Both the position numbers and the translations under genes were made by a program. A stretch of 64,000 bases of DNA, taken from Enterobacter cancerogenus (GTDB lineage: Bacteria > Pseudomonadota > Gammaproteobacteria > Enterobacterales > Enterobacteriaceae). Shown here piece after piece: positions 22,594 to 45,917 of this stretch. The notes below the pieces were generated by a model. That model saw only the letters and a program-made list of their open reading frames with translations. It did no database searches and was not told where the DNA came from. The stretch covers positions 186,001 through 250,000 of the forward strand of contig JRUP01000006.1 in assembly GCA_000773965.1 (NCBI GenBank), given 5' to 3'. Numbering within the stretch: position 1 is the first letter of the stretch; the number at the start of each line of letters is the position of its first letter.

Positions 22594-23904
22594 ATGAAGA
22601 AAACCAAACTCATTGCGGGCGTTGCGGTGATTGCTGCGGCTGTGGCAGCGGGCATGCTGTGGATGAACGGCGATACCTCCGCGGATGATGTCGCCAGCAA
22701 CAACGTACTCACCAGCCAACCGCCAACGGCGGCAGACAGTGCCGCGATTGAACGCGGACGTTATGTGGCGATTGCCAGTGACTGCACGGCTTGTCATACC
22801 ATGCCAGAAAGCAAACTGCCGCTGGCCGGGGGCTACTCCATCAGCACGCCGTTTGGCGGTATTTACGCGAGCAACATCACGCCGGATAGCGAAACCGGTA
22901 TTGGCAACTGGACGGAGCGTGATTTCTTCCGCGCGGTGCGCCACGGCAAGGGCAAAGAAGGGGAGCACCTTTATCCTGCGATGCCCTACAACGCTTATGT
23001 GAAGCTGACGGATCAGGACATGCACGACCTGTGGATGTACCTGCGCTCGGTTAAGCCAATTCACTATCAGGTGCCGGAAACCAACCTGGGCTTTCCGTAT
23101 AACATTCGTCTGGCGATGATGGGCTGGAACCTGCTGTTTTTCCGCAACGCAGGTTTCCAGCCAGACAGCAGCAAAAGTGCTGAATGGAACCGAGGCGCTT
23201 ATTTGGTGGAAGGGCCAGAACACTGTGCCGCCTGCCACACGGCTAAGAATCTGATTGGCGGTGACAGCAGTGATTATCTGCAAGGCGGTAATCTGGGTGA
23301 ATGGCATGCCCCCGACATCACACCGAACCCACACACCGGTATCGGAAGTTGGTCTGAGCAACAGGTGGTGGATTACCTCAAGCTCGGCAGTAACCATGTG
23401 GCGGTCGCTTCAGGCCCGATGGCGGAAGCTGTGACTAACTCCACGCAGCATCTAACCGACGCTGATTTGCGCGCAATTGCGGTGTATCTCAAGCAGGTTC
23501 CTGCCTCAACCACGACGTTGCCACAGCCGTTGTCGATGGACAATGGGCAAATGAAGATGGGTGAAAATGTCTATTCCGCCAACTGCACGGCCTGCCATAA
23601 CAGTGACGGCAAAGGGATTCCTAACCTCGCGGCGAGCCTGGCGAATAACCCTGGCCTGTTAGCGGATGATGCCTCTTCCATTATCACGACGGTGTTGCAG
23701 GGCGGACGAGGCGCGGTAACCACGGGTAATCCAACCAGCGGTGCCATGCCTTCGTTTGCCTGGAAGCTTTCGGACGAGCAAGTGGCAGCCGTGGCAACCT
23801 ACCTGCGCAACAGCTGGGGCAATGCGGCAAAACCGGTGGCATCGGATGAGGTGGCAGACAAGCGAGCCCTGCTGCGCCTGCCTTCGCAGATGGCCGCGCA
23901 TTAA
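22594..23904 (+). CDS. Triheme cytochrome c subunit of the membrane dehydrogenase
   Basis: 436 residues. The N-terminal signal/anchor has a KK start and a hydrophobic core. Three CxxCH heme sites are at about residues 64 (CTACH), 211 (CAACH) and 331 (CTACH), with downstream methionine ligands in MP motifs. It starts 1 bp after the flavoprotein stop and completes the electron path to ubiquinone. The last 45 codons and the downstream hairpin region are the source of a decayed copy at 45712-45917. Confidence 0.92.
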   Translation: MKKTKLIAGVAVIAAAVAAGMLWMNGDTSADDVASNNVLTSQPPTAADSAAIERGRYVAIASDCTACHTMPESKLPLAGGYSISTPFGGIYASNITPDSETGIGNWTERDFFRAVRHGKGKEGEHLYPAMPYNAYVKLTDQDMHDLWMYLRSVKPIHYQVPETNLGFPYNIRLAMMGWNLLFFRNAGFQPDSSKSAEWNRGAYLVEGPEHCAACHTAKNLIGGDSSDYLQGGNLGEWHAPDITPNPHTGIGSWSEQQVVDYLKLGSNHVAVASGPMAEAVTNSTQHLTDADLRAIAVYLKQVPASTTTLPQPLSMDNGQMKMGENVYSANCTACHNSDGKGIPNLAASLANNPGLLADDASSIITTVLQGGRGAVTTGNPTSGAMPSFAWKLSDEQVAAVATYLRNSWGNAAKPVASDEVADKRALLRLPSQMAAH

Positions 23905-24006
23905 TCAGGTGTGAGTTACAGGCCGTCCGGAAGGGCGGCCTGAATCCTTTCCCCAAAACTCCGCCAAAATTCTTCCTCAAAATGATGTTTTACATTCTGG
24001 GAAAAT
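23771..24006 (+). repeat. Left copy of a direct repeat flanking 22 kb
   Basis: The 3' end of the triheme cytochrome gene plus about 100 bp downstream. It recurs in the same orientation at 45712-45917 with scattered substitutions and a deletion that removes the hairpin at 23920-23941. Confidence 0.85.
23920..23941 (+). terminator. Terminator hairpin of the dehydrogenase operon
   Basis: AGGCCGTCC pairs with GGGCGGCCT around GGAA, 16 bp after the stop, followed by a weak T-rich stretch. Confidence 0.65.
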
Positions 24007-24064
24007 TTGCCTCTAGTTCTGTTAAAGCACGAACGTTTTCCACCCTGTATCGGCGAGGAATTGA

Positions 24065-24295
24065 TCAGGACTTCTTATACCATTTATCGTCGCGGCCTTT
24101 TTCGTAGGAATGCTTGACTGCAGCCCAGGCCACTTTATGTGACACTTCCTCCCGAGAGCTGTCATCCTTACGGTCCTTTTTGTCCTTATAATCATCCCAG
24201 GCACTGTTAAATGCTGCCAGATAAATATCCTGCGCATGAGCAGGGAGGACATGCCTGACGCTGTCTGGTAGGGAATCTCGTGATTTATACGGCAT
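24065..24295 (-). CDS. chaB: ChaB family protein
   Basis: 76 residues. The start MPYKSRDSLPDSVRHVLPAH and the segment DIYLAAFNSAWDDYKD are diagnostic of ChaB, and the end SYEKGRDDKWYKK also fits. ChaB is a small cytoplasmic protein described as a regulator of the ChaA cation antiporter. No chaA is nearby, so this is an orphan copy at the left border of the accessory segment. Confidence 0.93.
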   Translation of the reverse strand: MPYKSRDSLPDSVRHVLPAHAQDIYLAAFNSAWDDYKDKKDRKDDSSREEVSHKVAWAAVKHSYEKGRDDKWYKKS

Positions 24296-24669
24296 TGTTG
24301 GCCTCCTTTGATTTGAGACTTAAGCCTGGTTCACTTGTGACAATTTTCAACGTTTATTTAAGTGAATGAGGTTATATAAAATACACTTCAGAATATTGCT
24401 TAGGATTCAGATTGTTGACGTCACAATCATCATTTTTCGTCACATAGAGAAATTATAAGTTGATTATTTCTATCCAACTCAAGTACAGGTGGTTCAGACA
24501 AGTTAGCACATACATTAATGACACTGCGGATAGAAGGCTTCTGCCTGGATTATGAATGATTAAATTTAATCTCAAGAAGATACAGATTTGTCCTGGAAAA
24601 GGACTTCAGGTTTACAGCATTGAATTTCCTGCCAGGCTGAATGATTAAACGTAAATATGAGGTTAGAAA
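24296..24669. other. AT-rich intergenic region
   Basis: 374 bp upstream of chaB and of the small relic gene at 24670. No gene or structure was seen beyond the ribosome site GAGG at the end. Confidence 0.4.
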
Positions 24670-24864
24670 ATGAAAAACTACACGCTGTCAGCCGCAGTCT
24701 TATCCGTCATCCTTTGTGGTGTTTGTTCTTTTGGAGCTTACGCTGGAGTATTTGGATAAAGTGATGAGGCAGCGGTGTTATATGCTCACCTGCTGGCCGA
24801 TGCAGCTGCAAATTCGTCTGTACATAAACCGAAACGAGGATTTTATTGTTTAACTACCCCTTAG
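24670..24864 (+). pseudogene. Small secreted protein gene with an in-frame TAA
   Basis: ATG 24670, with GAGG just upstream, opens a signal-peptide-like start (MKNYTLSAAVLSVIL, then SFGAYA). Codon 30 is TAA (24757-24759). The same frame continues as SDEAAVLYAHLLADAAANSS and ends at a TAG at 24862-24864. The two halves make a plausible 64-residue exported protein, so the TAA looks like a point mutation. Alternatively a 29-residue peptide is the real product. The family is not recognised. Confidence 0.45.
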
Positions 24865-24912
24865 AAAAGATTCCTTAACTTAAACCTCAAGGGGGATATA
24901 ACTTACTCGCTT

Positions 24913-24943
24913 GCCGCCATGTGATTTTAATGCACAGGGCGGC
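24913..24943. terminator. GC-rich stem-loop downstream of the membrane protein gene
   Basis: GCCGCC...GGCGGC with inner TGTG/CACA pairing, in the gap following the minus-strand gene that ends at 25001. No T-run, so weak as a terminator. Confidence 0.35.
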
Positions 24944-25000
24944 ATGGGGTTTAGCGAGAGGCTCTGATCATCGAAACAGTATTTCTCTCACCGTAATGTG

Positions 25001-26011
25001 TCAAAGAGGTCGTTCACCGACCAGAACGGTATGGGGCTGAGTGCGTCTGCCAATGCGTCCGAATACAGCAGCCAGGACGGCCTCAATAATCAATACGAAG
25101 AAGGTAAACCAGCTTGCTCTGGCGGTTGCAGCGGCGGCTTTTTCAGCGGCCTCACGGGCTTTCTGCTCAGCCTGCTGTTTCAGTTGCTGAAACTGTGCCA
25201 TGGCTTTCTGATAACTCTCAACCGTCTGGTTAACGATCTGCTCAGCTTCCTGATCACTCTTACCTGTCCGGGCTTTGATGATGTTTTTGAGCGCATCCCG
25301 GTCGGCAGCCTGAAGAGTGTCTGAATGACGATTAATAACCCCACGGATCCAGTTCACGATATCTTTATCCGCATTTTGCGGATTCTGAGCCGTTTGTTTA
25401 GCCTGATCTTGTACGCTATTTGCCTCACTGTTCACATCCTGCTGAAGCTTATCCGGCTGAAGTTCAGGCTTACCTGTCTGACGGAGGGTGGCCTGTAACT
25501 CATTCTGGAGAGAATCTAAATTAATATTATTCTCCTGAAGTTTCTCTTTGGCCATGTTCCCGACAGACGGGGCAACGGCAGAAACACCACTGCCTATTGC
25601 ACTTGCTCCGGCACCCAGGATATTAAATGCGCCACCGATAATCCCTGTTGCCAGTGAAAATGCCAGCCAGAGGGTGATCAATGTACTAACGCCAAACATC
25701 AGTAAACCGTGTAGTGCGCCCTCGCGTTGTGCCAGCCTGCCAGCGACGTAACCGCCGGCAATGATGGCTATAAGCATACTGACACCCGTCCATATCAGCG
25801 CGCCGGTCCCTATATGTTCAAGTGGATTGCTTTCCTGTTGAGGGTCAATGACAGAAGCACCTATCGCAGTGCCGAGTAATCCTAATAAAATATGAACAAT
25901 AAGCGCGGCGATAACACCTGCAAATACCGCGCTCCATGAAATACGTTTTAGCGGCAGGCCACCATAAGACTCTGTAACGATAGCACCATCATTTACCCAG
26001 GGCTCAGACAT
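25001..26011 (-). CDS. Membrane protein with long cytoplasmic/periplasmic coiled-coil region
   Basis: 336 residues. Residues about 22-50 (SAVFAGVIAALIVHILLGLL), 68-90 and 100-130 form three membrane segments. A long hydrophilic Gln/Ala/Lys-rich stretch (about 155-300) is predicted coiled coil. A final membrane segment (about 300-320) is followed by a short basic tail. No catalytic motif was recognised. Proteins of this shape occur near general-stress genes in enterobacteria, which fits the neighbours, but the function is unknown. Confidence 0.8.
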   Translation of the reverse strand: MSEPWVNDGAIVTESYGGLPLKRISWSAVFAGVIAALIVHILLGLLGTAIGASVIDPQQESNPLEHIGTGALIWTGVSMLIAIIAGGYVAGRLAQREGALHGLLMFGVSTLITLWLAFSLATGIIGGAFNILGAGASAIGSGVSAVAPSVGNMAKEKLQENNINLDSLQNELQATLRQTGKPELQPDKLQQDVNSEANSVQDQAKQTAQNPQNADKDIVNWIRGVINRHSDTLQAADRDALKNIIKARTGKSDQEAEQIVNQTVESYQKAMAQFQQLKQQAEQKAREAAEKAAAATARASWFTFFVLIIEAVLAAVFGRIGRRTQPHTVLVGERPL

Positions 26012-26493
26012 GATATTTCTCCGGTAATTTATGATAATTATCCGACATCACGAAACAGACGTTATGATTTAGCGTAGTCACTAAATAAAAAGCCCACCAA
26101 ATTTATTTTGGGATTAAGCTACATTAAACGAGACGGTTAATAATCTTGTTTAGCACATCAAACAGAAATCTAACCGAAGCGCGATGCTTAGAGCGTGAAT
26201 TTCTTTTCCTTGAAGACTCTTAACATGAGAATAAAGCTAACCTTCACAAGGCGGTTCATCACAATGCTGTTAACAATTTCAGTGATGAATTTCGCCATGG
26301 TTACATAAAGGGTTGTTAATTACTGCATTAGTATCTGATGACTCGCTGTGCTTAGGTGTCTGTTATTTTTCCCTCCTTCATTTTCTTCTGCTTAGCGCCA
26401 GCCGTCTGGCTTGTGTTTTATGCCATGGCAACCAGACTTGTTGGGTTAACCGAGCCCCAAACGCTGAGCGTTTTTAACCGCAAGGAGAAATAT
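26012..26493. other. Intergenic region upstream of yhbO
   Basis: Divergent promoter space. A frame open from 26356 reads into yhbO but lacks homology, and the ribosome site AAGGAG sits at the real start. A TAACCGAAGCG unit at 26171 resembles the repeat seen at 41 and 50-51 kb. Confidence 0.45.
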
Positions 26494-27015
26494 ATGGGTA
26501 AGAAAATAGCTGTCCTGATCACCGATGAATTCGAAGACTCAGAGTTCACCTCACCCGCTGATGCCTATGCCAAAGCCGGCCACGAAGTCGTGACCATTGA
26601 GATGCAGGCGGGTAAGGTTGTGAAAGGTAAACAGGGTAATGCGGAAGTCAAAATCGACAGGGACATCGATCACGTTACCCCTGCAGAGTTTGATGCCTTG
26701 CTTTTGCCTGGCGGTCACTCACCTGACTCACTGCGCGGTGATGATCGTTTCGTGAATTTCACCAAAGAGTTTGTTGCCAGTGGCAAACCGGTGTTTGCCA
26801 TCTGCCATGGACCTCAGTTGCTTATCAGTGCTAATGGTGTGCGCGGCCGCAAGATGACCAGTGTAAAAGCCATCGCCATTGATCTGCGTAATGCAGGTGC
26901 TGACTTTTATGACAAAGAAGTCGTTGTGGATGACGATAAACTGGTCACCAGCCGCACGCCGGATGATCTACCTGCGTTCAATCGGGAAGCGCTGCGCATT
27001 TTGAATGCTGCATGA
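26494..27015 (+). CDS. yhbO: DJ-1/PfpI-family protein YhbO (stress deglycase/chaperone type)
   Basis: 173 residues. It starts MGKKIAVLITDEFEDSEFTS and has the nucleophile elbow AICHGPQLL, with the conserved Cys-His pair, and the end TSRTPDDLPAFNREALR; all match E. coli YhbO over its full length (172 residues, from memory). YhbO protects against oxidative, thermal and glycation stress. AAGGAG lies 6 nt before ATG 26494. A long hairpin follows at 27037. Confidence 0.93.
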   Translation: MGKKIAVLITDEFEDSEFTSPADAYAKAGHEVVTIEMQAGKVVKGKQGNAEVKIDRDIDHVTPAEFDALLLPGGHSPDSLRGDDRFVNFTKEFVASGKPVFAICHGPQLLISANGVRGRKMTSVKAIAIDLRNAGADFYDKEVVVDDDKLVTSRTPDDLPAFNREALRILNAA

Positions 27016-27036
27016 GTTATTAACCTGATCGTGTGG

Positions 27037-27068
27037 GCGCGAAACGATATATGGCTATCGTTTCGCGC
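27037..27068 (+). terminator. Long perfect hairpin after yhbO
   Basis: A 12-bp perfect stem (27037-27048 with 27057-27068, GCGCGAAACGAT and its complement) and 8-nt loop, 21 bp after the stop. No T-run. Confidence 0.55.
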
Positions 27069-27175
27069 TGCTTAATAGACTTATCTACTCCATCCGAATC
27101 AGCCAAGAAAGCGGTTGCCCATAACCGGATTTCGGAGGTGTAAACCAACGGCTGGCAAGGTGCGAAATACCATTA

Positions 27176-27406
27176 TTAATGGCTTTCGTTCCATCCAAAC
27201 TCTGAGTAAGGGCATTCGTTCTGGATATTTTCAATGGCTTGTCGGACATAAGGAATCGTATCTTCAGGAATGCCATGAAGAGGCCGCCAGTTGATTTCAG
27301 CATGCTTTTCAGGCTCGGCAAGATAGGCTGTCCCTCGCCACTTTGTGCAGAGAACGAACTGACCGATCCAGGAACGCTGGCTCTGGCTTAACTCGTTGCC
27401 TGCCAA
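27176..27406 (-). CDS. Hypothetical protein, possibly a fragment
   Basis: 76 residues with ordinary protein composition (WIGQFVLCTKWRGTAYLAEP, ending FGWNESH). The start would be TTG 27406 without a visible ribosome site, so it may be the remains of a longer gene; a second minus frame (27085-27321) overlaps it and could be its frameshifted continuation. No domain recognised. Confidence 0.35.
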   Translation of the reverse strand: MAGNELSQSQRSWIGQFVLCTKWRGTAYLAEPEKHAEINWRPLHGIPEDTIPYVRQAIENIQNECPYSEFGWNESH

Positions 27407-27773
27407 ATTAACGCTGGATGATGAGATTAATTAGTGCATCCCGCTGGGAGGTCCAGTCATTCATAAAGAGGATAATTAAGTAAGCAGCCTGAATGTTAGT
27501 TGATTTATATTCTAAGAATCATCATGCGGTGATGGTTTAGCGTATCGCTTATTTCAAAATATTCATAACCCTGTCCTGGCCTTGATGAAAAGCATTAAAC
27601 AGCTTAATTTTGAGAACGATACGCATTGATTATCCGTACAAGCGTAGGTTAATTTCATTGCCCGGAAAAAAAATAGATTCAGCGATCAGTATTCAATCAG
27701 CATCAGCATTTAGTGCGGCATAACGATGACAACCGCGCGCTGGGTATAATGTGTGATAACGAGGGCTGGGACG
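27407..27773. other. Intergenic region
   Basis: 367 bp of AT-rich sequence with no recognised gene or structure. Confidence 0.4.
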
Positions 27774-27995
27774 ATGGAAACACATTGCAGGCATTGCCAG
27801 GCTCAACTCAGCAGGGATGAGTATTTCTGGTTCGATGACGCCTGTCTTCATTGTGAGAGATTTATGCAGATAACGTCAGAAGAGCGCAACCTGTCCGTCA
27901 AATCTCCGCTGTATATCTTCTATGCAATGCATTTTCACACCCGCCGCCTGCGTCATAAATTTTCTGCCTGTTTACGTAACAGCAATATGCTGTGA
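27774..27995 (+). CDS. Small zinc-ribbon-like protein (73 aa)
   Basis: 73 residues from ATG 27774 (GAGGG upstream; a GTG at 27753 is also in frame). Two CxxC pairs, CRHC near the start and CLHC about 25 residues later, form a likely zinc ribbon. The rest (ITSEERNLSVKSPLYIFYAMHF) is helical and basic. Function unknown. Confidence 0.55.
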   Translation: METHCRHCQAQLSRDEYFWFDDACLHCERFMQITSEERNLSVKSPLYIFYAMHFHTRRLRHKFSACLRNSNML

Positions 27996-28126
27996 TCTGC
28001 CAGAGGCAAAGTGTAGCGGAATAATTTTGTCCACCTCAGGACTATAGTGTTAGGGGTGATAAAGGCTATTCAGTACAGGCTCTGTTTTCCCGAAAGCCGG
28101 CTTTAAAGGATGGTTTCTCCTGCATG

Positions 28127-28438
28127 TCATTTTTGAATCAGTATCATCCAGTAAGTCTTGGTCAGTTCCTCAGTATCTGGCGGTAACTGCCCGGGTTTTA
28201 ACGAAGATAAGGCTGTTGTATCCGCCTGTTCAATCACCTGTGAAATTTGCCAGCCGGCTGCCGCAAGAGTGGGGATGGTTCCCGAGATAGTGCTGCCACA
28301 AACAAATGAGGTGTCATCAGAAAGCGCGGCATTTTTATGTGATTGCGGTATTGCCTGTGATCGGCATATGTGAGCTTCGTTTGCGAGGGCCGGGACTGAT
28401 AATAGCCCCAGAAGAAACATTGAGGCAGGGGTTAGCAT
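28127..28438 (-). CDS. Small periplasmic protein with signal peptide
   Basis: 103 residues from ATG 28438 (or GTG 28444 with AAGGA 10 nt upstream). The signal peptide MLTPASMFLLGLLSVPALA ends in a clear ALA cleavage site. The mature protein has two cysteines (HICRS and FVCGS) that could form a disulfide. The open frame continues upstream to 28834 but without signal or protein-like composition. Family not recognised. Confidence 0.65.
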   Translation of the reverse strand: MLTPASMFLLGLLSVPALANEAHICRSQAIPQSHKNAALSDDTSFVCGSTISGTIPTLAAAGWQISQVIEQADTTALSSLKPGQLPPDTEELTKTYWMILIQK

Positions 28439-28797
28439 CTTCACTAAGTGTATTTCCTTACAGAGGCCGCGGCCATTTGTCCTGAGCGGGTAGCGTGCGG
28501 GTTGAGTTTTCAAAGAAAATCTTCGCAGTGCGTAATGAAGCATAGCCCTGAATAGCAAATCCCATGTACTCATAGATTCAAAATGCAGTGATAAAGACAC
28601 GATCATTATTGAAGGTTTTTTTCCTGACAACCGTTTATCGATGCCTGTCCTGAGCAACCGGGATAGGTTCCACTGCTGCCCGTTCACAGGGAAATGTGCA
28701 AGGAGCATGATGTTCAGAGGTGAAGGTGGTTTATGAGTAGTTAGTTTAAATCTCTCTCCCGAAACGCCGAACCAACTGGTTACAGCGTTTGAGGATG
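28439..28797. other. Intergenic region
   Basis: 359 bp between two minus-strand small genes. An open frame crosses it in phase with the periplasmic protein but looks non-coding. Nothing else seen. Confidence 0.35.
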
Positions 28798-29088
28798 TTA
28801 TGACAGATTCACACTCCGGAGACCAGACCAGCATCTTTCCGCTGAACGTGTGACTAAAACAGAGGGCTCCAGGCTAAAATTGCCCACCAGCGTCGCGACC
28901 CGATCGGTTAAGCTTCGAATGCTATCAGTACCCACATAAACGAACTCATTGGCGGGTAAGGCATACGTTCGCCCTTTTTCACATACCACGCTTCGGGAAA
29001 AACCATTCTCCAGCATGGTGTAAAACAGTTCAATCTGCTTACTGGCCGTCGGCTCTTTGAGCTCGACCCGGATTGTATAGCTAGCCAT
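28798..29088 (-). CDS. Small hypothetical protein, DUF2622-like
   Basis: 96 residues from ATG 29088, with GAGGT 7 nt before it. It starts MASYTIRVELKEPTASKQIE and has GRTYALPANEFVYVGTDSIR, a beta-rich N-terminus like small enterobacterial stress proteins of the DUF2622 type. That assignment is from memory and uncertain. Confidence 0.6.
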   Translation of the reverse strand: MASYTIRVELKEPTASKQIELFYTMLENGFSRSVVCEKGRTYALPANEFVYVGTDSIRSLTDRVATLVGNFSLEPSVLVTRSAERCWSGLRSVNLS

Positions 29089-29541
29089 AACCGCACCTCA
29101 CTTAAGTTAAAATTTAAGTTTACTTAATATTTTAAGTAGATGCCCTGGATTTGCTGCTTTAGGATAATTCCCAGGAGAGTCGAATGACATGCTGGTATTC
29201 GTAACGCCATGAAAAAATTAATTTATAGATTTTAAACGTAATCTACAGATATCAGTAAATTTGATCCTGAGACCGGATATTCGCTTCGTTTTAACAGGGA
29301 TCGGTTCTGGAAAGCATTCATAAATTCAGTTTGCTCTACTTCAGGGCAGCAAGTATTCATCGGTACATCGTTATTTCAATGTTCAGCATCTGGTTCAGGG
29401 CCATTTTATATTAAAAAATTCTACCAATCGCACTGAATAACCGCAGCGCTAATTAATATTCACAAAAACTTCATCAGGGTCAGCATGCTGCTATATAAGG
29501 GATTAGCAGTGCTCCCGTTTATTCCGGATAGTCTGAAGTGG
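29089..29541. other. Intergenic region
   Basis: About 450 bp, AT-rich, divergent between the gene at 28798 and the small ORF at 29542. No gene recognised. Confidence 0.4.
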
Positions 29542-29634
29542 ATGGAAAACTTTATGTTTGCTAATATTTCAATGAGTGCAGAAATGGTGTATTCAGAAAT
29601 ATCGATTTTCCCTGGTGTTGGTCATAAAGTATGA
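29542..29634 (+). CDS. Candidate 30-residue peptide followed by a terminator
   Basis: ATG 29542 encodes 30 residues (MENFMFANISMSAEMVYSEI, then SIFPGVGHKV) and stops 2 nt before a strong terminator. The ribosome site is poor. It may be a small protein or the end of a small RNA. Confidence 0.3.
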   Translation: MENFMFANISMSAEMVYSEISIFPGVGHKV

Positions 29635-29636
29635 CG

Positions 29637-29658
29637 CCCGCTTCGGCGGGATTTTTTT
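29637..29658 (+). terminator. Strong intrinsic terminator with TTCG loop
   Basis: CCCGC-TTCG-GCGGG followed by A and seven Ts. A plus-strand transcript must end here; the only candidate is the small ORF at 29542 or an unannotated small RNA. Confidence 0.85.
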
Positions 29659-29810
29659 CTTTAAACCCTGCACGTTTCATCTTCACAAATTCCCCCCCCC
29701 TCAGCCCCTGGCGTTTAACTTGCTGGGTGAAGTACCGACATGATGCTTGGAGCGAGAGGCGTTCTGGCTACAGTAAATACCCCGATGTTTATCGGTTATG
29801 AGTGTGAGGT

Positions 29811-29849
29811 AAAAAATACCCGCTCTGGGCGGGCGTAATTCGTTACAGA
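29811..29849 (-). terminator. Minus-strand terminator with conserved leader (copy 1)
   Basis: On the minus strand, TGTAACGAATTACGCCCGCC runs into a hairpin (29819-29833) and a T-run (29811-29816). The sequence before the hairpin is shared with the terminator at 44558-44598. Confidence 0.7.
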
Positions 29850-29984
29850 GAGTATTCTCCCTGCTGATTCCGACAGGGATGTGTCGAAATCGTTCAGGAA
29901 ACGTTCGTAATGCTGGAGTTAGGAACAGGCTGACCAGTCCGGCAGTTGGTTGGCTGGATAATAATGAGCGAGTTACACCGGTGT

Positions 29985-30317
29985 TCAGTGGGCGCCGGAC
30001 TTGGAAAGGACATTAATGATCAGCACGCCGATACAAATAAACGCCATGCCTATTATCGCGGGAAGATCGAGTTTCTGCCCGCTCACGAGCCATCCGACCA
30101 GACTGATGAGCACAATGCCGGCGCCGGACCAGATTGCATAGGCAACGCCAGTGGGAATGTGTGCCAGCGTTTGTGAGAGCATATAGAACGCAGCAAAGTA
30201 GCAGATCAGAGTGGCAAGGGAAGGCCACAGACGGGTGAACCCTTCGGAATATTTCATAAATGTGGTGCCAATGACCTCGGCCACAATGGCAATTCCCAGA
30301 AACAAATACGTATTCAT
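29985..30317 (-). CDS. emrE: SMR-family multidrug efflux transporter (EmrE/QacE type)
   Basis: 110 residues, four membrane helices, the standard SMR size. The essential Glu14 is in AIVAEVIGTTFMK and Trp63 in YAIWSGAGIV, matching EmrE numbering. These dimers exchange protons for lipophilic cations such as quaternary ammonium compounds at the inner membrane. No partner SMR gene is adjacent, consistent with an EmrE-type homodimer rather than a paired SMR. Confidence 0.92.
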   Translation of the reverse strand: MNTYLFLGIAIVAEVIGTTFMKYSEGFTRLWPSLATLICYFAAFYMLSQTLAHIPTGVAYAIWSGAGIVLISLVGWLVSGQKLDLPAIIGMAFICIGVLIINVLSKSGAH

Positions 30318-37677: not shown

Positions 37678-37715
37678 ATAAGTCCTAAGCCTTTACCCTA
37701 AGGTTTAGGGCTTAT
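37678..37715 (+). terminator. Imperfect hairpin after the dehydrogenase
   Basis: ATAAG-CCTAA-CCTT pairs with AAGG-TTAGG-CTTAT, with G-T wobbles, 22 bp after the stop. It may partly end the dehydrogenase transcript before the SDR gene. Confidence 0.5.
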
Positions 37716-37827
37716 CAGGTGTCTTTACTCAATGATATTTCCCATCCCGGCGCTCCTGCTTCGCTTGATCATCACCTCATGGCTGCCAGGCTTAACAATC
37801 ATTGAAAGGGCCATATGGAGAATAACG

Positions 37828-38592: not shown

Positions 38593-38932
38593 TATCTAAA
38601 AGGGGAGCAATCAACGCTTCCCTACCAATTCTTCAAAATGCGTGTGAGTTCGGTTATTCAATATAAAGCCGTTTTCCTGACCACCTTGAAAAATTTATCA
38701 GGTACATCTTTAGTGCATACATCCATGTTAACCCCTGACAGTCTCAACGCTTATTATCGGTCAAAGTCATACGAAGAGCCGGTATATAGCCGGAGTAGAG
38801 TCAGTTGGGTGCAAATGCATAAAATTTTTATGGTGGTAGGTAGGTTAAAGCGCCAGAAAAAGAAGTTTCCTGAGTGGCTGGACGCTGGTTCAGAATGTTA
38901 TGAGATATCGAAAAATATGCTGCACTTGGGCT
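38593..38932. other. Intergenic region
   Basis: 340 bp. A plus-strand frame (38638-38994) overlaps the 3' end of the ycaP homologue and has no homology or ribosome site; I do not regard it as a gene. Confidence 0.4.
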
Positions 38933-39622
38933 TCAGACCCGCTTTTTGTTCAATGCGAGTGACCAGGTATTGCGTCCGCATTCAGGACATCTAGGTTCTT
39001 CATATCCAGGTATCTCTCGAGTAGTGCCGCAGCGGTTACAGGCATATAAACCTGCTTCAGGGATTTGGGTGAAACAATGACGGTGTGCTTCAGGAAGTAC
39101 AGATAGCCCGGCCCGCACTTCTTCGTCCGGATAGAAGTAGAGACTGAGCTGGCCATCGACCTCTACCAGCCCCAGCCGTATCTGACCAAGGTGTTCGGCC
39201 CCTTTAAGTCGTAACTCCATCAGAAACTCATCTTCTGAAATGTTCAGCCGGTCCAGATTCTCAGAAACGTACTTGCCATCAGCGATGAGCGTTACCACTT
39301 CTCATTCAATCAGAGTTGAGAACCACGAAGATTTGGTCATTGCCCAGGTGGTTAGTCGATACAATAATAATAATATGACAAAGACCAAAATGACGGGAAG
39401 AACGGGGACATCATTGTAAAAAGTCACATCCCCTGAAGCTGATCCTAATGTCAGGATCACCACAACTTCGAAGAGTGAGAGCTGCTGGACACCGCGCCTG
39501 CCTGAAATTTTCAAAAAGGTGAAAACGACGATATATGCAATGAGTACGCGTATAACGACTTCAAAGAGGAAGGTGTAAGGCTGATCGTTAATGAGAAATT
39601 TATGGAGGTCGAAATCTGCCAT
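38933..39622 (-). pseudogene. ycaP: YcaP/YetF-like (DUF421) membrane protein interrupted by one TGA
   Basis: One continuous minus-strand frame of 229 codons, the length of E. coli YcaP (230, from memory), broken only by TGA at 39302-39304. Upstream half: three membrane helices with ISGRRGVQQLSLFEVVVILT, GSASGDVTFY and the end STLIE. Downstream half: EVVTLIADGKYVSENLDRL, MELRLKGAEHLGQIRL and a C-terminal zinc-ribbon-like CNRCG...CPECG as in YcaP. The stop stands where family members have Gly (LLEG-K/E), i.e. GGA to TGA. Readthrough is conceivable, but a recent pseudogene or a sequencing error is more likely. Confidence 0.85.
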
Positions 39623-39795
39623 GGTTCACCCCTGAATTGAGCTCTGAATCGACTTGGAACGTAAGCTATGTAATGACGATTACTGACACCTATAAATTAT
39701 AGCCGGACAGCTTTCAATCAATGGATTAACTTGAATAGGAGTGAGTGGTAAGTTTCAAACGGGCTTTGGGTTTTAAAATCAAAGGTGAAAAATTA

Positions 39796-39951
39796 ATGAA
39801 GGTTTTCTCCTTTAAAGTGATGATTTGGCGATTCGTTTATTCATTATGGCTCACAATATTTTATTTTTACAACGGTTCGCTTGTATACCTTAAACAGTTC
39901 ACTAAGCATGATAGAAATGAAAAAGTTGCGCCCGCGCTCAATGCAAACTGA
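39796..39951 (+). CDS. Small membrane protein (51 aa)
   Basis: 51 residues from ATG 39796 with AAGGTG 8 nt upstream. One membrane helix (VMIWRFVYSLWLTIFYFY) and a basic tail. No homologue recognised. Confidence 0.4.
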   Translation: MKVFSFKVMIWRFVYSLWLTIFYFYNGSLVYLKQFTKHDRNEKVAPALNAN

Positions 39952-40222
39952 TTCGAAGAACCTGCCGACCCATTCACCCCCCCCTCTATAACTAATATGA
40001 TAAAAACATCCCCCTTGATTGAGTGGCATTGTTTATCCTGGCGTAAAATAAAAATGAGGATAATTAGTTAAGTCTCTTTCATGAGAGAAGCAGGACAAGT
40101 TTAATGAAAGGTTGTTCACTTAAATGACTTAATTCGACATAGAATGTGAGGGAGTAGATAATGCAGGGAAGAAAGTGGATTTCATTAATTTGAACAGTTG
40201 ATATCGTTACTTAGTTAATACA

Positions 40223-40248
40223 GTCCGGCACACCGGCCGGACTTTTTT
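40223..40248. terminator. Terminator hairpin GTCCGGC/GCCGGAC
   Basis: A 7-bp perfect stem with 6-nt loop and six Ts on the plus strand. It abuts the stop of the minus-strand lipoprotein gene, and serves a plus-strand transcript of unknown content (40050-40220) or both strands. Confidence 0.75.
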
Positions 40249-40417
40249 ATGACTGTGGCTGACCAATGGGACCCTGGCCCTGTGGACCTCCGGGCACGGA
40301 TTGCTGGCTTGGTGCGTGAGGACGGCCATCCGGCCCAACTGCAGGACCGGGTTCCTGACAGCCCGCCAGTGTCATCAGACTCGCAATGACAAACATTCCA
40401 CCTAAAAAGCTCTTCAT
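40247..40417 (-). CDS. Small lipoprotein (56 aa)
   Basis: 56 residues from ATG 40417 with a strong GAGGGGGT site. The signal peptide ends in the lipobox LAGC, followed by a Pro/Gly/Gln-rich tail (QEPGPAVGPDGRPHAPSQ...). Likely a small outer-membrane lipoprotein; no family recognised. A longer frame read on the same strand in another phase (40215-40460) is a shadow. Confidence 0.75.
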   Translation of the reverse strand: MKSFLGGMFVIASLMTLAGCQEPGPAVGPDGRPHAPSQQSVPGGPQGQGPIGQPQS

Positions 40418-40576
40418 AACACCCCCTCATTAATCCAGGCAACCCAATGTTGCTTTCCAAGCCTGGTCATGTCTGCAGGCATTTGAAAGCGAAGCCGTAA
40501 AACTAAATACGCTTTACTGCCAATGAGTTCTGATAAAACGGCCTTAACGCACTTGCTCACTCTCAGAGATTGCAAT

Positions 40577-40596
40577 TACTGTATGTATATACAGTT
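40577..40596. promoter_or_regulatory. LexA (SOS) box
   Basis: TACTGTATGTATATACAGTT: CTG-N10-CAG with the AT-alternating centre of enterobacterial SOS boxes, 21 bp before the start at 40618. Confidence 0.88.
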
Positions 40597-40617
40597 TAAT
40601 TTTGGGAGGGCACCGAT

Positions 40618-40857
40618 ATGCCCCGTGACTATGAAATCATGATTGCCTTCAGGCAGGCGGTTAAACGCGATGCCGCTGGCCGTTTCACCATCAGCACACT
40701 CGATTTTGTGAAAGAACTCGATCGTCTGAACTGGCGCTACTCGCTACGCGCCGCCAACAAATGGATCGAGATGCACACAACGACCTTCCGGGACATCTCG
40801 ACAAGTGAGGGGGAGGAACGCATGTTTCAGGTCTTTAATCCGAACGGAAGAAATTGA
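40618..40857 (+). CDS. SOS-controlled small protein (79 aa)
   Basis: 79 residues from ATG 40618 (GGGAGGG 6 nt upstream). It starts MPRDYEIMIAFRQAVKRDAA and holds NKWIEMHTTTFRDIST. The LexA box just upstream shows it is DNA-damage inducible. I do not recognise the function; cytoplasmic, no membrane segment. A decayed second copy lies at 42467-42559, so the family has been duplicated here. Confidence 0.8.
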   Translation: MPRDYEIMIAFRQAVKRDAAGRFTISTLDFVKELDRLNWRYSLRAANKWIEMHTTTFRDISTSEGEERMFQVFNPNGRN

Positions 40858-41263
40858 GCAACGTGTGCCAACCCCGATTGGGTAATCCATCTGGCAGGCA
40901 ACTGATTATGAGTTATTCAATGGGACTAAATCGTGAACAGCGAGACATTAATTTCCCTATCTTGCTGAAATAAATGAAAAATCCAGATCAATATAATTAC
41001 AAAATTTAAAACCGTGATAAATGTCACAAAAAAGAAAATCCAACAATTATGTACAGCTTGTTTTGGTTTTGTACAACTTCAAAAATTTCCCTTTTAAAAG
41101 CAATTGAATATAAGCGCAACGGTTAACTCGTTGTTTTAAAACAGAAATAAGCGAAGCGGTAAACATGCATTTTAAATGTGGTTTTATCGAAAAATTGAGC
41201 CATATTATTTCTCATTGGAACGTTAGCACGCTTAATATTCGACTGATATATAAGGGGGGATAC
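40858..41263. other. Intergenic region with TAAGCGAAGCG unit
   Basis: 406 bp, strongly AT-rich around 40960-41100. It contains TAAGCGCAACGG at 41111 and TAAGCGAAGCGG at 41148-41159, the same motif repeated at 50.8-51.5 kb. No other gene. Confidence 0.5.
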
Positions 41264-41449
41264 ATGCCATCAAGAAGAGGTGGGGCCGGTAATTTTGCTG
41301 AGGATGCGGACCGCGCGCGTGAAGCCGGGCGTAAAGGAGGAAGCGCAAGCGGGGGAAACTTCAAAAATTGTCCAGATCGCGCTGTTGAAGCCGGTCGCAA
41401 GGGCGGACAAATCAGCCGCAGGCGCAAACCGGTAATCGAGGAAAGTTAA
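41264..41449 (+). CDS. KGG-repeat (con-10-like) stress protein, YciG paralogue
   Basis: 61 residues from ATG 41264 (AAGGGGGG upstream): SRRGGAGNFAEDADRAREAG, RKGGSASGGNFKNCPDRA, RKGGQISRRRK. Two KGG repeats and a basic tail. Disordered, probably a stress protectant. Second of three paralogues in the window. Confidence 0.9.
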   Translation: MPSRRGGAGNFAEDADRAREAGRKGGSASGGNFKNCPDRAVEAGRKGGQISRRRKPVIEES

Positions 41450-41463
41450 TTCGCCAGACAGTC

Positions 41464-41486
41464 GGCCGGTTAGAATCATACCGGCC
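41464..41486 (+). terminator. Terminator hairpin after the KGG gene
   Basis: GGCCGGT and ACCGGCC, a 7-bp stem, 14 bp after the stop, followed by TTGCTTCG (weak T-run). Confidence 0.6.
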
Positions 41487-41520
41487 TTGCTTCGAAAAAC
41501 AGAAACAGGGGGCACGTAAT

Positions 41521-41751
41521 ATGTTCTCACCCACCCTAGCATTCAGACAATTAGCCGGGCAGGTTGATACGTTCCCGAGCAGAAGAGGCGGAACATATCA
41601 CTGGGCAGATCCTTTTGCCACCCATGGCACACCTCAAAGTACTTGCTTAAATCTCTATAAAATTCTCTGTGTAGAGGATGACACGGTAAAAGCAACGGAT
41701 TCACCAGAGGTCAGACACAAAAAGCGTTCAGGTAACCGACCTGTAAGATAA
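41521..41751 (+). CDS. Doubtful small ORF (76 aa)
   Basis: 76 codons from ATG 41521 with GGGGG upstream at long spacing. Composition is mixed and no domain is recognised; it may be non-coding. Confidence 0.25.
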   Translation: MFSPTLAFRQLAGQVDTFPSRRGGTYHWADPFATHGTPQSTCLNLYKILCVEDDTVKATDSPEVRHKKRSGNRPVR

Positions 41752-42090
41752 GTTGGTGGATGCCTGATTATTAAGCGGCTCAGATAACAATTCTGTTTAG
41801 TAACACCCAGACGTCCTGTCCTTTTACGTCCTTTTGACGCATGCTTAAATCTCTTCCCCGGGGCTATGCCTGGGCCATTCCCCCTCTGACAAGGGGCAAT
41901 TATGAAATCTCATAGGTCAAAAACTGTCGCACAGCGAATTGCGCGGTGGCTGGCACCTCTAATCTGATGTCGCTTTCCGACACTTCAATCTTCCCGTGCT
42001 TCCTTCGTGGATCCTTCATAGATTCGAAGATGAGGCATATTGTCTGTTTTTTTGAGACTGGACGAACACCAATTTCGTGGGGGTGAACAA
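41752..42090. other. Intergenic region
   Basis: 339 bp with no recognised gene. The end provides the ribosome site GGGGGTG for the gene at 42091. Confidence 0.35.
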
Positions 42091-42270
42091 ATGGAACAGG
42101 GTTTTTACTGGGTCCAGAAGGGCGAGACGCAACCTGAAGTCTGGTACTTCGCTGATGGTGAAGGGGGAGGATGGTTCAAGCCAAGCCGAAGTCTGCCCGT
42201 TCACCCTGATGATTTTGTCGAGCAGGGGTTCAATGTCATCAGTGATCGCCTCGAACCTCCGGCAGAGTGA
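42091..42270 (+). CDS. Small hypothetical protein (59 aa)
   Basis: 59 residues from ATG 42091: MEQGFYWVQKGETQPEVWYF, then FKPSRSLPVHPDDFVEQGF. Aromatic- and acid-rich, probably a compact beta protein. Small proteins starting 'GFYWVQ' occur as orphans in enterobacterial accessory DNA; function unknown. Confidence 0.55.
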   Translation: MEQGFYWVQKGETQPEVWYFADGEGGGWFKPSRSLPVHPDDFVEQGFNVISDRLEPPAE

Positions 42271-42466
42271 TGACATCACCTGTACGACATACCTCCCCTG
42301 GCAGAGGGAGTCGTATGGAAACGAGGCATTGCCATTAAAAAATGCCTGCACAGGACGGCCTACAAGCGGTAGCGATGAACGTATTTTTCCTGTAAACGCA
42401 ACCCGAGTGCTTTAACCTGTTTCAGGTTCTGCTTTCGGCTACATGAAACGAGTCGTAGGTATTGAG
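42271..42466. other. Intergenic region
   Basis: About 200 bp leading into the SOS-gene relic. No gene. Confidence 0.3.
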
Positions 42467-42559
42467 TCAAAGTGGATCGAGATGCACCAGAAAACATTCA
42501 GGGATGGCTGCTGTGGGGATGAGTAATCCCTCAAGGTGTTCAATTCCAACGGGTGCTGA
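42467..42559 (+). pseudogene. Decayed 3' fragment of the SOS-controlled gene at 40618
   Basis: In one frame it reads SKWIEMHQKTFRD, GCCGDE, stop, SLKVFNSNG, stop, matching NKWIEMHTTTFRD...MFQVFNPNG of the intact gene. The 5' part and SOS box are missing. A relic of a duplication. Confidence 0.75.
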
Positions 42560-42697
42560 GAAATCACCCTGATAACTGTCGGTAGGGGCTAGGGGCTCAT
42601 CGTCAGCAAAAAAAAGCATGAACCAGACGTGAGTCCGATTCATGCAGAGTGCTGACTACTCAGTTTTCTTTTTATTTGCCCGCTCTGATGCGTCGAG

Positions 42698-42790
42698 TCA
42701 CCAGGGCGTGGGTCCCCACTGGGTTTGTACCAGAAACACAATCACCAGAACCAGTAAAGTGGTGACGGCCGGTATGATCAGGTATCGCAT
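42698..42790 (-). CDS. Small membrane peptide A (30 aa)
   Basis: 30 residues from ATG 42790 with AGGAGA 7 nt upstream: MRYLIIPAVTTLLVLVIVFL then VQTQWGPTPW. One membrane helix. Strong ribosome site and clean ends support a real gene. Confidence 0.6.
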   Translation of the reverse strand: MRYLIIPAVTTLLVLVIVFLVQTQWGPTPW

Positions 42791-42935
42791 GTTCAATCTC
42801 CTGTCTGTCTGACCACGAGAATTTGAAACGATGAAAAACCCGCCCTTATTCATCACCGACCGTTCAATGACATCGGCGGTTTAGCGATGGATACTTACGT
42901 CGTGTTATGGCCTGCAAAGCGCCGGGCTAAGCGCT

Positions 42936-43028
42936 TTAAAACCAGTTCAGATATTTCGGTAAACCTATCGCTAACACCGCAATGGCCACGATATTCAGTA
43001 CGATAACGAATCCTGGTGAAACATCCAT
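42936..43028 (-). CDS. Small membrane peptide B (30 aa)
   Basis: 30 residues from ATG 43028 with AGGTGA upstream: MDVSPGFVIVLNIVAIAVLA then IGLPKYLNWF. One membrane helix, same length and strand as peptide A, 145 bp away. Possibly a functional pair or related to small type I toxins/membrane regulators; function not known. Confidence 0.55.
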   Translation of the reverse strand: MDVSPGFVIVLNIVAIAVLAIGLPKYLNWF

Positions 43029-43763
43029 AAGTCACCTAAGGTAAACGAGCGGCATCCAGCAAGACACGACGTCGGGCTGCTGGCCAGTTGGTCATCGCTG
43101 AAATCACAGACACTGCCGTGCTGATAATTCACCTGCCAGGCACGCAGCATGTATCCCAGCGTTCCCGCACAGGCATTTTGCTCATTAAGCGTAGTGCAGG
43201 TCTTCACAGACCAAAAGCGTAGCCATATAGCGAAGTTAGGGGTTTTTAATAGGGTTCGGAAATTGACGGGCAACCCCACAGCTAAACCCCACTCAAACGA
43301 GCTGTCGATGTCAACCGCGCGTGTCAGGGGAAAGGTAAGCTAAAAAAAGCCCGCTCAGGGCGGGCAAAAAAGCAGTGGCTAAGGAATGTCTCTCTCGTAT
43401 GAAACGCATCCTGTGTGCTGTGCTGCCAGTCAACGACTGACCCACATACCTTAGACCATTAATTACTGTGTGGTAGGATGTGTTAACAAAAGCGATAAAA
43501 TTCCAGTAATTTCCAGTAAGTTATATGAATTAGCGATTTATAAACTAAATTTCAGAGAGTTAACCGAAGCGACAAGAGATTGCTGCTGATTATCTCTGGT
43601 TTATGTCGGCCTGAATAATGCTCAAATCTAAAACTCCTGCGCTTATGGCAACCGGCCCGGTCAAACTGAAATGCCACGTCCATCTCAGATTAAATCCCCT
43701 TTACCCACAACACGTTTGTAAAAAGTCTTTATGCCCGACTTGATCGATTGTGCTGTTTACGAT
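43029..43763. other. Long intergenic region before umuD
   Basis: 735 bp. It contains the minus-strand terminator at 43342-43365 and a TAACCGAAGCG unit at 43561. A minus-strand frame (42995-43279) is open but overlaps peptide B and shows no homology. No other gene recognised. Confidence 0.4.
43342..43365 (-). terminator. Minus-strand intrinsic terminator
   Basis: GCCCGC...GCGGGC (43349-43365) with seven Ts on the minus strand and six As on the other side. It ends an unidentified short minus-strand transcript from about 43400-43560. Confidence 0.75.
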
Positions 43764-43783
43764 TACTGTTTATATATACAGTA
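43764..43783. promoter_or_regulatory. LexA (SOS) box of umuD
   Basis: TACTGTTTATATATACAGTA, CTG-N10-CAG, nearly the ideal SOS box, 18 bp before the umuD ATG. Confidence 0.93.
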
Positions 43784-43801
43784 TTTGTCAGGGCTATCAT
43801 C

Positions 43802-44222
43802 ATGGAGTTTTTCAGACCTGCGGAAATGCGCCATTCTTGAGTTACCGCTTTTCATTGCCAGAGTCCCGTGTGGCTTTTCGTCGCCGGCTCAGGACTATGT
43901 CGAACAGCGGCTGGACCTTAATAATCTGCTGGTTAGCCATCCCAGTTCGACCTACTTCATCCGGGTCAGCGGTGATTCGATGATCGAGGGTGGTATTAAC
44001 GATGGCGACATGCTGGTAGTCGACAGCTCCTTCACCGCGGAGCATGGGGATATCATCGTGGCGGCGATTTCCGGCGAGTTCACAGTGAAGCAACTGATGA
44101 CCCGGCCTTTCCTGCACCTGAAACCGATGAACGCCGCGCACGCCATTATCCCGATCCCCGATGCCGATCAGTTTGAAATCTTCGGCGTGGTCCGGCACTC
44201 CATTGAGACGATGGGCCGTTAA
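43802..44222 (+). pseudogene. umuD: umuD with a +1 frameshift near its start
   Basis: ATG 43802 begins [12 protein letters not shown] and meets TGA at 43838. Dropping one T of TCTT (43835-43838) restores the expected [13 protein letters not shown] and the rest of UmuD. The downstream frame is complete: Cys-Gly cleavage site, catalytic Ser in SGDSMIEGG, catalytic Lys in EFTVKQL, and a normal end at 44222. UmuD is the SOS mutagenesis factor that self-cleaves with RecA and partners UmuC (DNA Pol V). The frame open from 43731 starts upstream of the LexA box, so it is unlikely to rescue expression. Confidence 0.88.
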
Positions 44223-44341
44223 TGTTTGTTCTGGTGGATGTGAACTCATTCTATGCCAGCTGCGATACGGTGTTCCGGCCTGATCTGCGTGGTAAGCCGG
44301 TATCTGGTCGAGTTAAGAGGGCGATGCTGCATTGTGGATGA
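44222..44341 (+). pseudogene. umuC: umuC 5' stub
   Basis: The start overlaps the umuD stop by 1 nt, as in intact umuDC. The first 27 codons (MFVLVDVNSFYASCDTVFRP, DLRGKPV) match UmuC; afterwards the frame leaves the family and stops at 44341. The rest of the polymerase gene is gone, so this locus cannot make Pol V. Confidence 0.88.
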
Positions 44342-44697
44342 ACTCCGGCGGCCGGGTAACGATAGCACCGTGCTTCTGAAGGTGGCGGGGAGGCTGGAAT
44401 GAGGTGTGACGATGTTTCATCCAAACCGTATCCTGACTGAAGACGGGCTGCTTCTTGAGGATGATTTGCTTGAGGATGTGATCGTTGTGGGGCTGGTGAC
44501 GCATAAAGTGAGCGCTTTGAACGTGTCGGATTCTTCACCCGTTTGAACTTCATCGGGCAAAAAAAGGCCCGCATCGGCGGGCGAAATTCGTTACATGGGA
44601 TAATCTCCATATAAGTTATGACGTTAGGTATATTTGAAAGTTCATATTTTCCGACTAACTTTGTACTTAAACCAAACCGGCGTTTTCTTTACTTGAT
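44342..44697. other. Intergenic region with terminator
   Basis: 356 bp after the umuC stub, containing unrecognised remnants and the terminator at 44558-44598. Confidence 0.4.
44558..44598 (-). terminator. Minus-strand terminator with conserved leader (copy 2)
   Basis: Minus strand: TGTAACGAATTTCGCCCGCC leads into hairpin GCCCGC/GCGGGC (44567-44582) and a 7-T run. The leader is shared with 29811-29849, so this is a repeated transcript end, perhaps of a small RNA; a tiny ORF starting ATG 44610 reads through it. Confidence 0.7.
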
Positions 44698-44913
44698 ATG
44701 AACGACATGAATTCAAATCGCGCAGGAATGATTGGATGTGCCATCGGATCGGCTGTAGTCGAACTGGCGGCAAAAGGAGTACCGCTTAGCAGGGTGAGTA
44801 TCATCATTGAACTTGAACGCATCGCTGCGGGGTCATCAGACCTGCAGGTAAAGGCGTTTGCATTAGATGCCGCAAAGTTGCTAAAGGCGGGAGGAGATGA
44901 AATTAACGCTTAG
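44698..44913 (+). CDS. Small hypothetical protein (71 aa), YmgB/AriR-like shape
   Basis: 71 residues from ATG 44698 or 44707: MIGCAIGSAVVELAAKGVPL, SRVSIIIELERIAAGSSDLQ and a helical end. The helix pattern and spacing recall the YmgB/AriR connector-protein group, but this is only a suggestion. No strong ribosome site. Confidence 0.5.
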   Translation: MNDMNSNRAGMIGCAIGSAVVELAAKGVPLSRVSIIIELERIAAGSSDLQVKAFALDAAKLLKAGGDEINA

Positions 44914-44993
44914 CCTTTGTCTTTTGAAGCTGTAGTGAAATGAAAGCATTCCGGCCCCTGCAGAAACCTTAGCGGAGGCCCTGAACTGGCCTG

Positions 44994-45386
44994 TTAAGGT
45001 TCGTCGATTCGGGTAACTTTGAGATGCGCGCTTTCGCCTTTACCGTAGACTTTCCCGCTTACGCGGACCTTGTCTTCTGCACTGTACGTTTTGCCTTTGA
45101 ATGTGCTGGCCGGAGCATCGATGTTGACCGTGCCTGAACTGTCACGAAACTGGTAAGTGTCGCCTTTGATCTTTTTGACGATATAGCCCTCCAGCGTGAC
45201 ATAGCCCCCCTGACGGAAATCTTTGATCAGCGTAACCGGCGTCTCTCCCGTATCTTCCGACCCCTTGTACCCGGCATCCTCCTTATTCTGAGGTGGGGGC
45301 GTTTTACCGGCTTCATATCCTCCCGTTTCGGCATATGCACCGACGCTCAGAGGTAACATCACTGCAATCCAGGCGACCTTATTCAT
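44994..45386 (-). CDS. ygiW: Periplasmic OB-fold stress protein (BOF family, YgiW/YdeI-like)
   Basis: 130 residues from ATG 45386 (GGAG 6 nt upstream). Signal peptide MNKVAWIAVMLPLSVGAYA, then the BOF core: GGYVTLEGYIVKKIKGDTYQ, FRDSSGTVNIDAP and DKVRVSGKV. YgiW/YdeI proteins help resist hydrogen peroxide, acid and cationic peptides in the periplasm. The symbol marks the family; ygiW versus ydeI orthology is not settled. Confidence 0.87.
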   Translation of the reverse strand: MNKVAWIAVMLPLSVGAYAETGGYEAGKTPPPQNKEDAGYKGSEDTGETPVTLIKDFRQGGYVTLEGYIVKKIKGDTYQFRDSSGTVNIDAPASTFKGKTYSAEDKVRVSGKVYGKGESAHLKVTRIDEP

Positions 45387-45711
45387 TTCATTCTCCATTG
45401 ATGTGTCTTCAGGTGTAAGCCTGGCACAGTGCCTGGAAAGTAAACGGAACGGGTGTGAAATAAATATTTGATCTCAGCGCAGGGAGTCAATGCATGCGAA
45501 CCCAGATCACAAGATTTCAGGTGAGGCACCAACACTGGATAGGCTTTATTAAGCTTATCCCGCTTAAGAACGTTATCACCTTCTCCAATATTCGTTGTAA
45601 TACATTGATCTATAAGTCAATGTGAAGCGAACGAGGCCCAAGTAAATAGCACTTAAAATTTAGCATAACCATATGAATTTGAGGGGATTATTTCGATTTT
45701 TAATGGTGTGC
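45387..45711. other. Intergenic region at right border of the accessory segment
   Basis: About 325 bp, AT-rich, divergent from ygiW. Nothing recognised before the repeat copy begins. Confidence 0.4.
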
Positions 45712-45917
45712 CGGACGAACAGGTGTCAGCCGTTGCGACCTACCTGCGCAACAGCGGGGAAATTCGGCAAAACCGATGACACCGGATTAGGTGGCAGACA
45801 AGCGAGCCCTGCTACACCTGCCTTCGCAGATGGCCGCGCATTAATCAGGTCTGAATCCTTTCCCCAAAACTCCTCCAAAATTCTTCTCCAAAATGAATTT
45901 TAAAATTCTGGGGAAAC
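45712..45917 (+). repeat. Right copy of the direct repeat: decayed cytochrome 3' end
   Basis: The sequence reads PDEQVSAVATYLRNS in phase with the family, then breaks by indels before KRALL...LPSQMAAH-stop, corresponding to the last 45 codons of the triheme cytochrome at 22594-23904, followed by the same downstream sequence (TGAATCCTTTCCCCAAAACT). The copy lacks the hairpin of the left copy. Confidence 0.88.

Follow-up and report, generated by a model that had tools for sequence, protein, structure and literature searches.

A 64,000-nucleotide stretch of Enterobacter cancerogenus contig JRUP01000006.1 (hereafter, as a whole, the window) carries two same-direction copies, R and R', of the 3' end of a cytochrome c subunit gene belonging to a gluconate-2-dehydrogenase-type operon. 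We interpret R and R' as relic attachment sites of e14-like elements, inserted as a tandem pair by tyrosine integrases of the group that targets dcp and icd, with the integrase gene (int) since lost; we give this interpretation a probability of about 0.87. The dcp/icd-targeting group is that of e14 and phage 21. A preliminary description of the window had offered, as its first reading, insertion of an element into the 3' end of the gene, with an attachment-like duplication left behind. The boxes behind the gene end in both copies, the exchanged 3' end and a displaced native gene end in Erwinia sp. S63 support that reading, which was right in kind and wrong in extent.

The repeat, its boxes and the exchanged gene end

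Self-comparison of the window aligned 23771-24005 with 45712-45916 as a direct repeat (235 columns, 78.3% identity, 30 gap columns, E = 5e-55), confirming the roughly 200 bp of same-orientation duplication previously placed at 23771-24006 and 45712-45917. The pair is the top-scoring of eight direct pairs listed at E <= 1e-6 across the whole contig (292,682 bases), and R and R' are the sole two copies in the genome at E <= 0.001. In R, the last 45 codons of the cytochrome gene, which is intact and encodes 436 aa, are followed by a terminator and a further ~60 bp, and weaker similarity to S63 extends to ~24041. Aligned with R, R' lacks 29 bases, by which the terminator hairpin is lost, and one further base in its coding part, which shifts the frame. 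The indels and missing terminator reported earlier for the right copy are accordingly accurate for the window, but not for its relatives: the right copies of Pantoea sp. alder81 and of plasmid CP093281 retain the hairpin, and it is deleted in R' of the window only.

Beyond the gene end, both copies contain three CAAAA boxes spaced by 11 and 13 bp, a pattern that matches exactly twice in the window and never in 100 shuffles. Among the viral sequences of IMG/VR, the 35-bp box sequence (in the form of R' and of the left copy of S63, from which R of the window deviates by 2 bases) is present in 15 stretches, just after dcp in all 15, and a tyrosine-integrase gene (dcp-type int) lies 57 bp beyond the boxes in 14 of them. 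The window copies align with the dcp prophage arm over 51-65 bp, with scores of 76, 87 and 82 against shuffle maxima of 23-24, and the nearest match to the box sequence is in the dcp prophage of NZ_CP015912 (56 bp, 85.7%). Every box match that we opened lies beside int: E. coli dcp and icd prophages (3 of the 11 genomes listed), Providencia phage PSTCR8lys, both of two Klebsiella plasmids and both of two further Pantoea genomes (at icd). By comparison with these loci, the CAAAA boxes are predicted to be integrase arm-type sites. The Klebsiella plasmid records hold the last 164 bp of icd followed by terminator, boxes and int, the same arrangement as R' with the cytochrome gene replacing icd, and R' therefore has an attP-like layout.

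The fifteenth IMG/VR contig (4.7 kb) has dcp and the boxes and gave no int match along its length, a possible parallel to the integrase-less site of the window. A search at the start of the repeat for a core common to the cytochrome gene and icd found none (score 13; 55% of shuffles scored as high).

The end of the cytochrome gene itself appears to have been exchanged. In the window, S63 and alder81, the final 55 bp of the gene show 55-62% identity to those of formicae, rwandensis and rodasii, versus 82-86% for the rest of the gene, and against formicae none of 1206 other 54-bp windows is as low; for other sequence pairs, low 60-bp windows are also found elsewhere in the gene. Between the window and wallisii, identity over the last 55 bp is 75%, near the gene average of 78%. 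The site patterns for the exchange are 4:1 versus 2:80 (p = 3e-5), with the cut chosen after looking. In S63, positions 16622-16920 of contig C43, just left of the flank that carries the KGG general-stress gene, continue the last 17 gene bases of rodasii, its terminator, spacer and flank (303 columns, 76.9%, E = 7e-56 including the flank). This scrap alone scores 60 against a shuffle maximum of 23; it lies across a contig gap from the left copy. The target gene thus has an intact open reading frame (ORF), a 3' end unlike that of its sister species and a native remnant in S63, pointing to a 3' end that was replaced while the gene was left open.

Comparison with relatives lacking the insert defines its extent. 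Eleven loci were compared, of which five (formicae, rwandensis, rodasii, SOD02 and a Pantoea metagenome-assembled genome) lack it, as does At-9b; in these six, the cytochrome gene is followed at short distance by DNA, including the KGG stress gene, that matches the window from 50.64-50.99 kb on. The segment is therefore not universal in its relatives, and genomes without it join the cytochrome gene to ~50.64 kb, not to the repeat at 45.7-45.9 kb, where the preliminary description had set its right boundary. Because insert-free relatives resume at ~50.64 kb, the foreign stretch spans ~24.0-50.6 kb and R' is internal to it; a plain 22-kb insertion ending at 45.9 kb is rejected on the same ground. 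Of the remaining loci, S63 and alder81 belong to the clade with the insert, and A4, septica, piersonii and wallisii have other neighbors there.

Integrases of this kind can use a site inside a gene, for which attP brings a replacement sequence, with blocks of identity of up to ~250 bp at icd, and a tandem pair normally has three mutually similar attachment sites (PMC10111431). The attP of the element in question would have carried, in this order, a spare 3' end for the cytochrome gene, a terminator, arm-type boxes and int. Integration inside the gene would have exchanged its own 3' end for the element's copy, keeping it whole and producing R as the left site, whereas R', with a spare 3' end and then int-side boxes, would be where two tandem elements join. 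The native end would have been pushed far to the right, near 50.6 kb, leaving the scrap seen in S63. Subsequent losses would have taken the two int genes and almost every phage gene, while genes for stress, efflux and SOS functions were retained or acquired. A single insertion gives one int-side site; since there are two such sites in the same direction 22 kb apart, with the native end beyond both in S63, a tandem pair is the simplest account, and R' is best read as its internal joint. Two of the three expected sites are found in the window, R' resembling the Klebsiella attP layout, and the third is found in S63 only. It is from these observations that we infer the tandem insertion, the order of events and the loss of int.

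Points against a tandem relic and alternative explanations

Several results weigh against this interpretation. The tyrosine-integrase domain PF00589 was detected neither on the window's contig nor on alder81 contig C30 or plasmid CP093281, and tblastn with three integrases found no remnant in the window. An attP with the cytochrome 3' end was not found, two patterns from the coding part of R each giving 0 viral contigs. Phage structural genes are absent from the segment in the window, and the native gene-end scrap was not found at 50.4-50.75 kb in the window, nor in alder81, by the test that located it in S63. S63, for its part, has the left copy without R', and the two flanks there are split between contigs. 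The test of the exchanged 3' end used a post hoc cut, and at two further sites in that region the clade groups with SOD02. Finally, 0 alignment columns are fixed between left and right copies, and 9 columns set both alder81 copies apart from the other five, so that conversion between copies or separate insertion events are needed.

An intact integrase of the dcp/icd family is likewise missing from the genome of the window, alder81, formicae, rodasii and CP093281; S63 has a fragment of the family elsewhere in its genome (38% identity, with a stop), and phage records searched with the repeat returned the box sequence only, in one phage. With no integrase gene beside the boxes, we class the locus as a relic of such elements and not as a working member. 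The preliminary description had also seen no integrase and concluded that this favored decay or recombination; its observation holds by both the PF00589 and tblastn searches, but the conclusion fails, as the box array remains.

The similarity of the alder81 copies, which look homogenized, could be expected if a single element had inserted, R being its left site and R' a product of later duplication, conversion or re-insertion of left-site DNA (for example, by RecA-mediated re-integration of a circle), and the few genes (~4.7 kb) between R' and the native flank would suit this as well. We nevertheless consider it unlikely, because a duplicated R would have to land at the end of the phage cargo and beside the displaced native end, while a box-bearing R' has the attP layout that tandem insertion gives directly. 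There is still less to recommend homologous recombination at the cytochrome gene, bringing in the segment from a plasmid with stress genes already behind the gene and with attachment sites as older baggage. Relatives of ChaB, PfpI and phosphoketolase do stand behind the cytochrome gene of Pantoea sp. A4 in the same order, and the 3' end of the island clade is closer to wallisii than to formicae; however, A4 has no boxes after the gene, its middle genes differ, and the far-side position of the native gene end in S63 does not follow from recombination alone, so that we give this explanation little chance.

The preliminary description's second reading, in which a second cytochrome operon stood at 45.7 kb and was deleted save for its 3' end, retains hardly any credibility. 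The right copy does include, in the versions of relatives, a gene 3' end with its terminator, but no further piece of an operon lies beside R' in the self-comparison of the window, no relative examined has a second operon, and in the six insert-free relatives a single operon directly precedes the KGG flank. Moreover, the right copies of the window and of CP093281 start at the identical point inside the cytochrome gene, and a deleted operon would leave the integrase-type boxes unexplained.

Gene content and versions of the insert in relatives

The features of the locus are collected in Table 1. Homologs of the cytochrome gene are annotated as cytochrome c and located after a GMC oxidoreductase and gluconate 2-dehydrogenase subunit 3. 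As previously described, stress, SOS, efflux and broken genes lie between the copies, and domain matches bear this out: the segment encodes a DJ-1/PfpI protein, an SMR efflux protein, a thiamine pyrophosphate (TPP) enzyme, two DUF892 proteins, a zinc-dependent alcohol dehydrogenase, a KGG protein, a UmuD-like peptidase and a BOF protein. A YetF (DUF421) protein is broken into two adjacent ORFs, its N- and C-terminal parts (38933-39622). In the window, ChaB and other genes follow the boxes of R, at the place occupied by int in dcp elements.

Table 1. Coordinates of features in and around the insert (window positions)
Feature	Position	Strand	Basis
Cytochrome c subunit gene, 436 aa, gluconate-2-dehydrogenase-type operon; putative target (attB) gene, intact, 3' end apparently replaced	22594..23904	+	ORF; homologs; 3'-end comparison
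R, left attachment-type site: last 45 codons, terminator, predicted arm-type boxes	23771..24006	+	Repeat alignments; comparison with relatives
Terminator-like hairpin CAGGCCGTCC..GGGCGGCCTG, inside R	23919..23942	+	Window sequence; absent from R'
Three CAAAA boxes of R, spacing 11 and 13 bp; integrase arm-type by comparison	23954..23982	+	Pattern scan; matches elsewhere
Putative relic of element 1, without its integrase; cargo of stress, efflux and SOS genes, with broken genes	24006..45711	.	ORFs; domain matches; relatives
SOS/phage cargo adjoining R': phrog_3893-type gene region, umuD, BOF gene	40577..45428	.	Homologous stretch adjoins phage genes in S63 and formicae
UmuD-like gene; umuC partner absent (present in S63)	43731..44222	+	Domain match; S63 comparison
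R', internal attachment-type site: gene 3' end truncated and frameshifted, hairpin lost, predicted arm-type boxes kept	45712..45917	+	Repeat alignment; box scan
Three CAAAA boxes of R'	45865..45893	+	Pattern scan
Presumed relic of element 2: SDR, AraC/GlxA-type regulator, MAPEG, DUF1348 and TetR genes	45917..50640	.	Domain matches; six relatives lack it between cytochrome gene and KGG flank
Native downstream flank of cytochrome gene	50640..51165	.	Comparison with relatives
KGG general-stress gene, in native downstream flank	~50985-51165	-	Comparison with relatives

As to phage or satellite content, 2 of the 10 orphan ORFs tried match a PHROG (the UmuD-like protein and one of unknown function). 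In S63 and formicae, Lom and other phage genes lie next to the counterparts of the SOS cargo that stands just before R', as expected, from the gene order of lambdoid prophages, at the prophage end remote from int. Upstream of the phrog_3893-type gene and of umuD, CTGT-AT-rich-ACAG sequences (40577-40600 and 43765-43785) look by eye like LexA boxes. The membrane-protein stretch of the island has matches in 51 of 61 genomes of the genus (66-75% outside the window's own genome and alder81), and being so widespread it says little about the origin of the island.

The window is colinear with Pantoea-type plasmids, namely pSOD02 of SOD02 (927 kb), pPAT9B01 of At-9b (794 kb) and CP093281 (953 kb). All three are typed rep_cluster_1232; an At-9b plasmid of ~794 kb is named LPP-1 in PMC3505739. 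CP093281, p1 of "Pseudomonas silvicola", is filed under that name yet has ~93% DNA identity to the window, so that either the plasmid passed from one family to another or the sample was mixed; the abundance of small indels in it points to a noisy assembly.

Two R-type copies are found in 2 of the 61 genomes, that of the window and alder81. In alder81, on an ordinary draft contig, they are 8.2 kb apart and the insert is organized as in the window, with ChaB and a membrane gene at its left end, the BOF gene at its right end, and then DUF1348, TetR and KGG genes. In CP093281 both copies are also present, 35 kb apart. In S63, a homolog of window 40225-45429 is on a second contig, beside phage-type genes, and window 45913-50589 is on a third. 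The order of modules right of R' (SDR, insertion sequence (IS), TetR) varies among relatives. A TnpB gene (OrfB_IS605, Cas12f1-like TNB) directly follows the right copy of alder81 (11225-12346 of that stretch), and a gene identified by eye as IS110-like lies in S63 near window 45429; IS-mediated duplication was rejected, as neither is at both copies.

Behind the cytochrome gene of Pantoea sp. A4 (stretch positions 2068-8602), SDR-like and catalase-like ORFs (the latter named by eye) stand between the ChaB, PfpI and phosphoketolase relatives. In rodasii, contig C5 holds a direct repeat of the end of umuC and the DNA beyond it (10716-10915 and 12027-12227, ~1.1 kb apart, 83.6%), in a region with tail-fiber-assembly and UmuD-like genes; this may be a second attachment-type scar.

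Relation to known elements

The cytochrome subunit gene looks like a target that is as yet undescribed for this integrase group, found here at icd and dcp; no description of it turned up among the papers listed by literature searches, judged from the listings alone. An orphan repeat beside a gene can thus be recognized as an attachment scar through its array of integrase-binding sites, long after the integrase itself is gone. On this interpretation, a phage insertion site on a large plasmid would have turned into a site for stress genes, with stages of 8, 22 and 35 kb (site-to-site distance) in three relatives. Perhaps the paired sites still recombine, as the alike copies of alder81 could indicate, and host recombination at the cytochrome gene can remove, restore or exchange the integrase-less stress island. 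We hold this to be decidedly doubtful; if true, a non-autonomous phage descendant would now be moving stress genes among Pantoea megaplasmids.

Among known systems, the locus is comparable to the cryptic prophage e14 in icd of E. coli, which is inserted after codon 362 with 165 bp duplicated (icdC) and 12 exchanges (PMC11148124). As in e14, the insertion lies in the 3' part of a gene, a replaced end keeps the gene whole and a copy of the 3' end is on the other side; unlike e14, the gene here encodes a cytochrome subunit on a megaplasmid, ~135 bp of gene and ~100 bp beyond it are repeated, and the integrase is gone. Furthermore, icdC is a plain displaced end, whereas the repeated copy here carries the int-side boxes instead. 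The dcp prophages of E. coli and its relatives (NZ_CP015912 and the 15 IMG/VR contigs) share the order of gene end, terminator and boxes, but int follows in 14 of the 15 where the window has ChaB and other genes. The icd elements of two Pantoea genomes and the Klebsiella plasmids likewise have three boxes between the end of icd (164 bp of it in Klebsiella) and int; they differ in their target and in an int that is intact. Similar attachment sites also define the tandem islands at fis and at tRNA genes (PMC10111431), and these tandems have three sites, while here the third is a mere scrap in S63 and is gone from the window.

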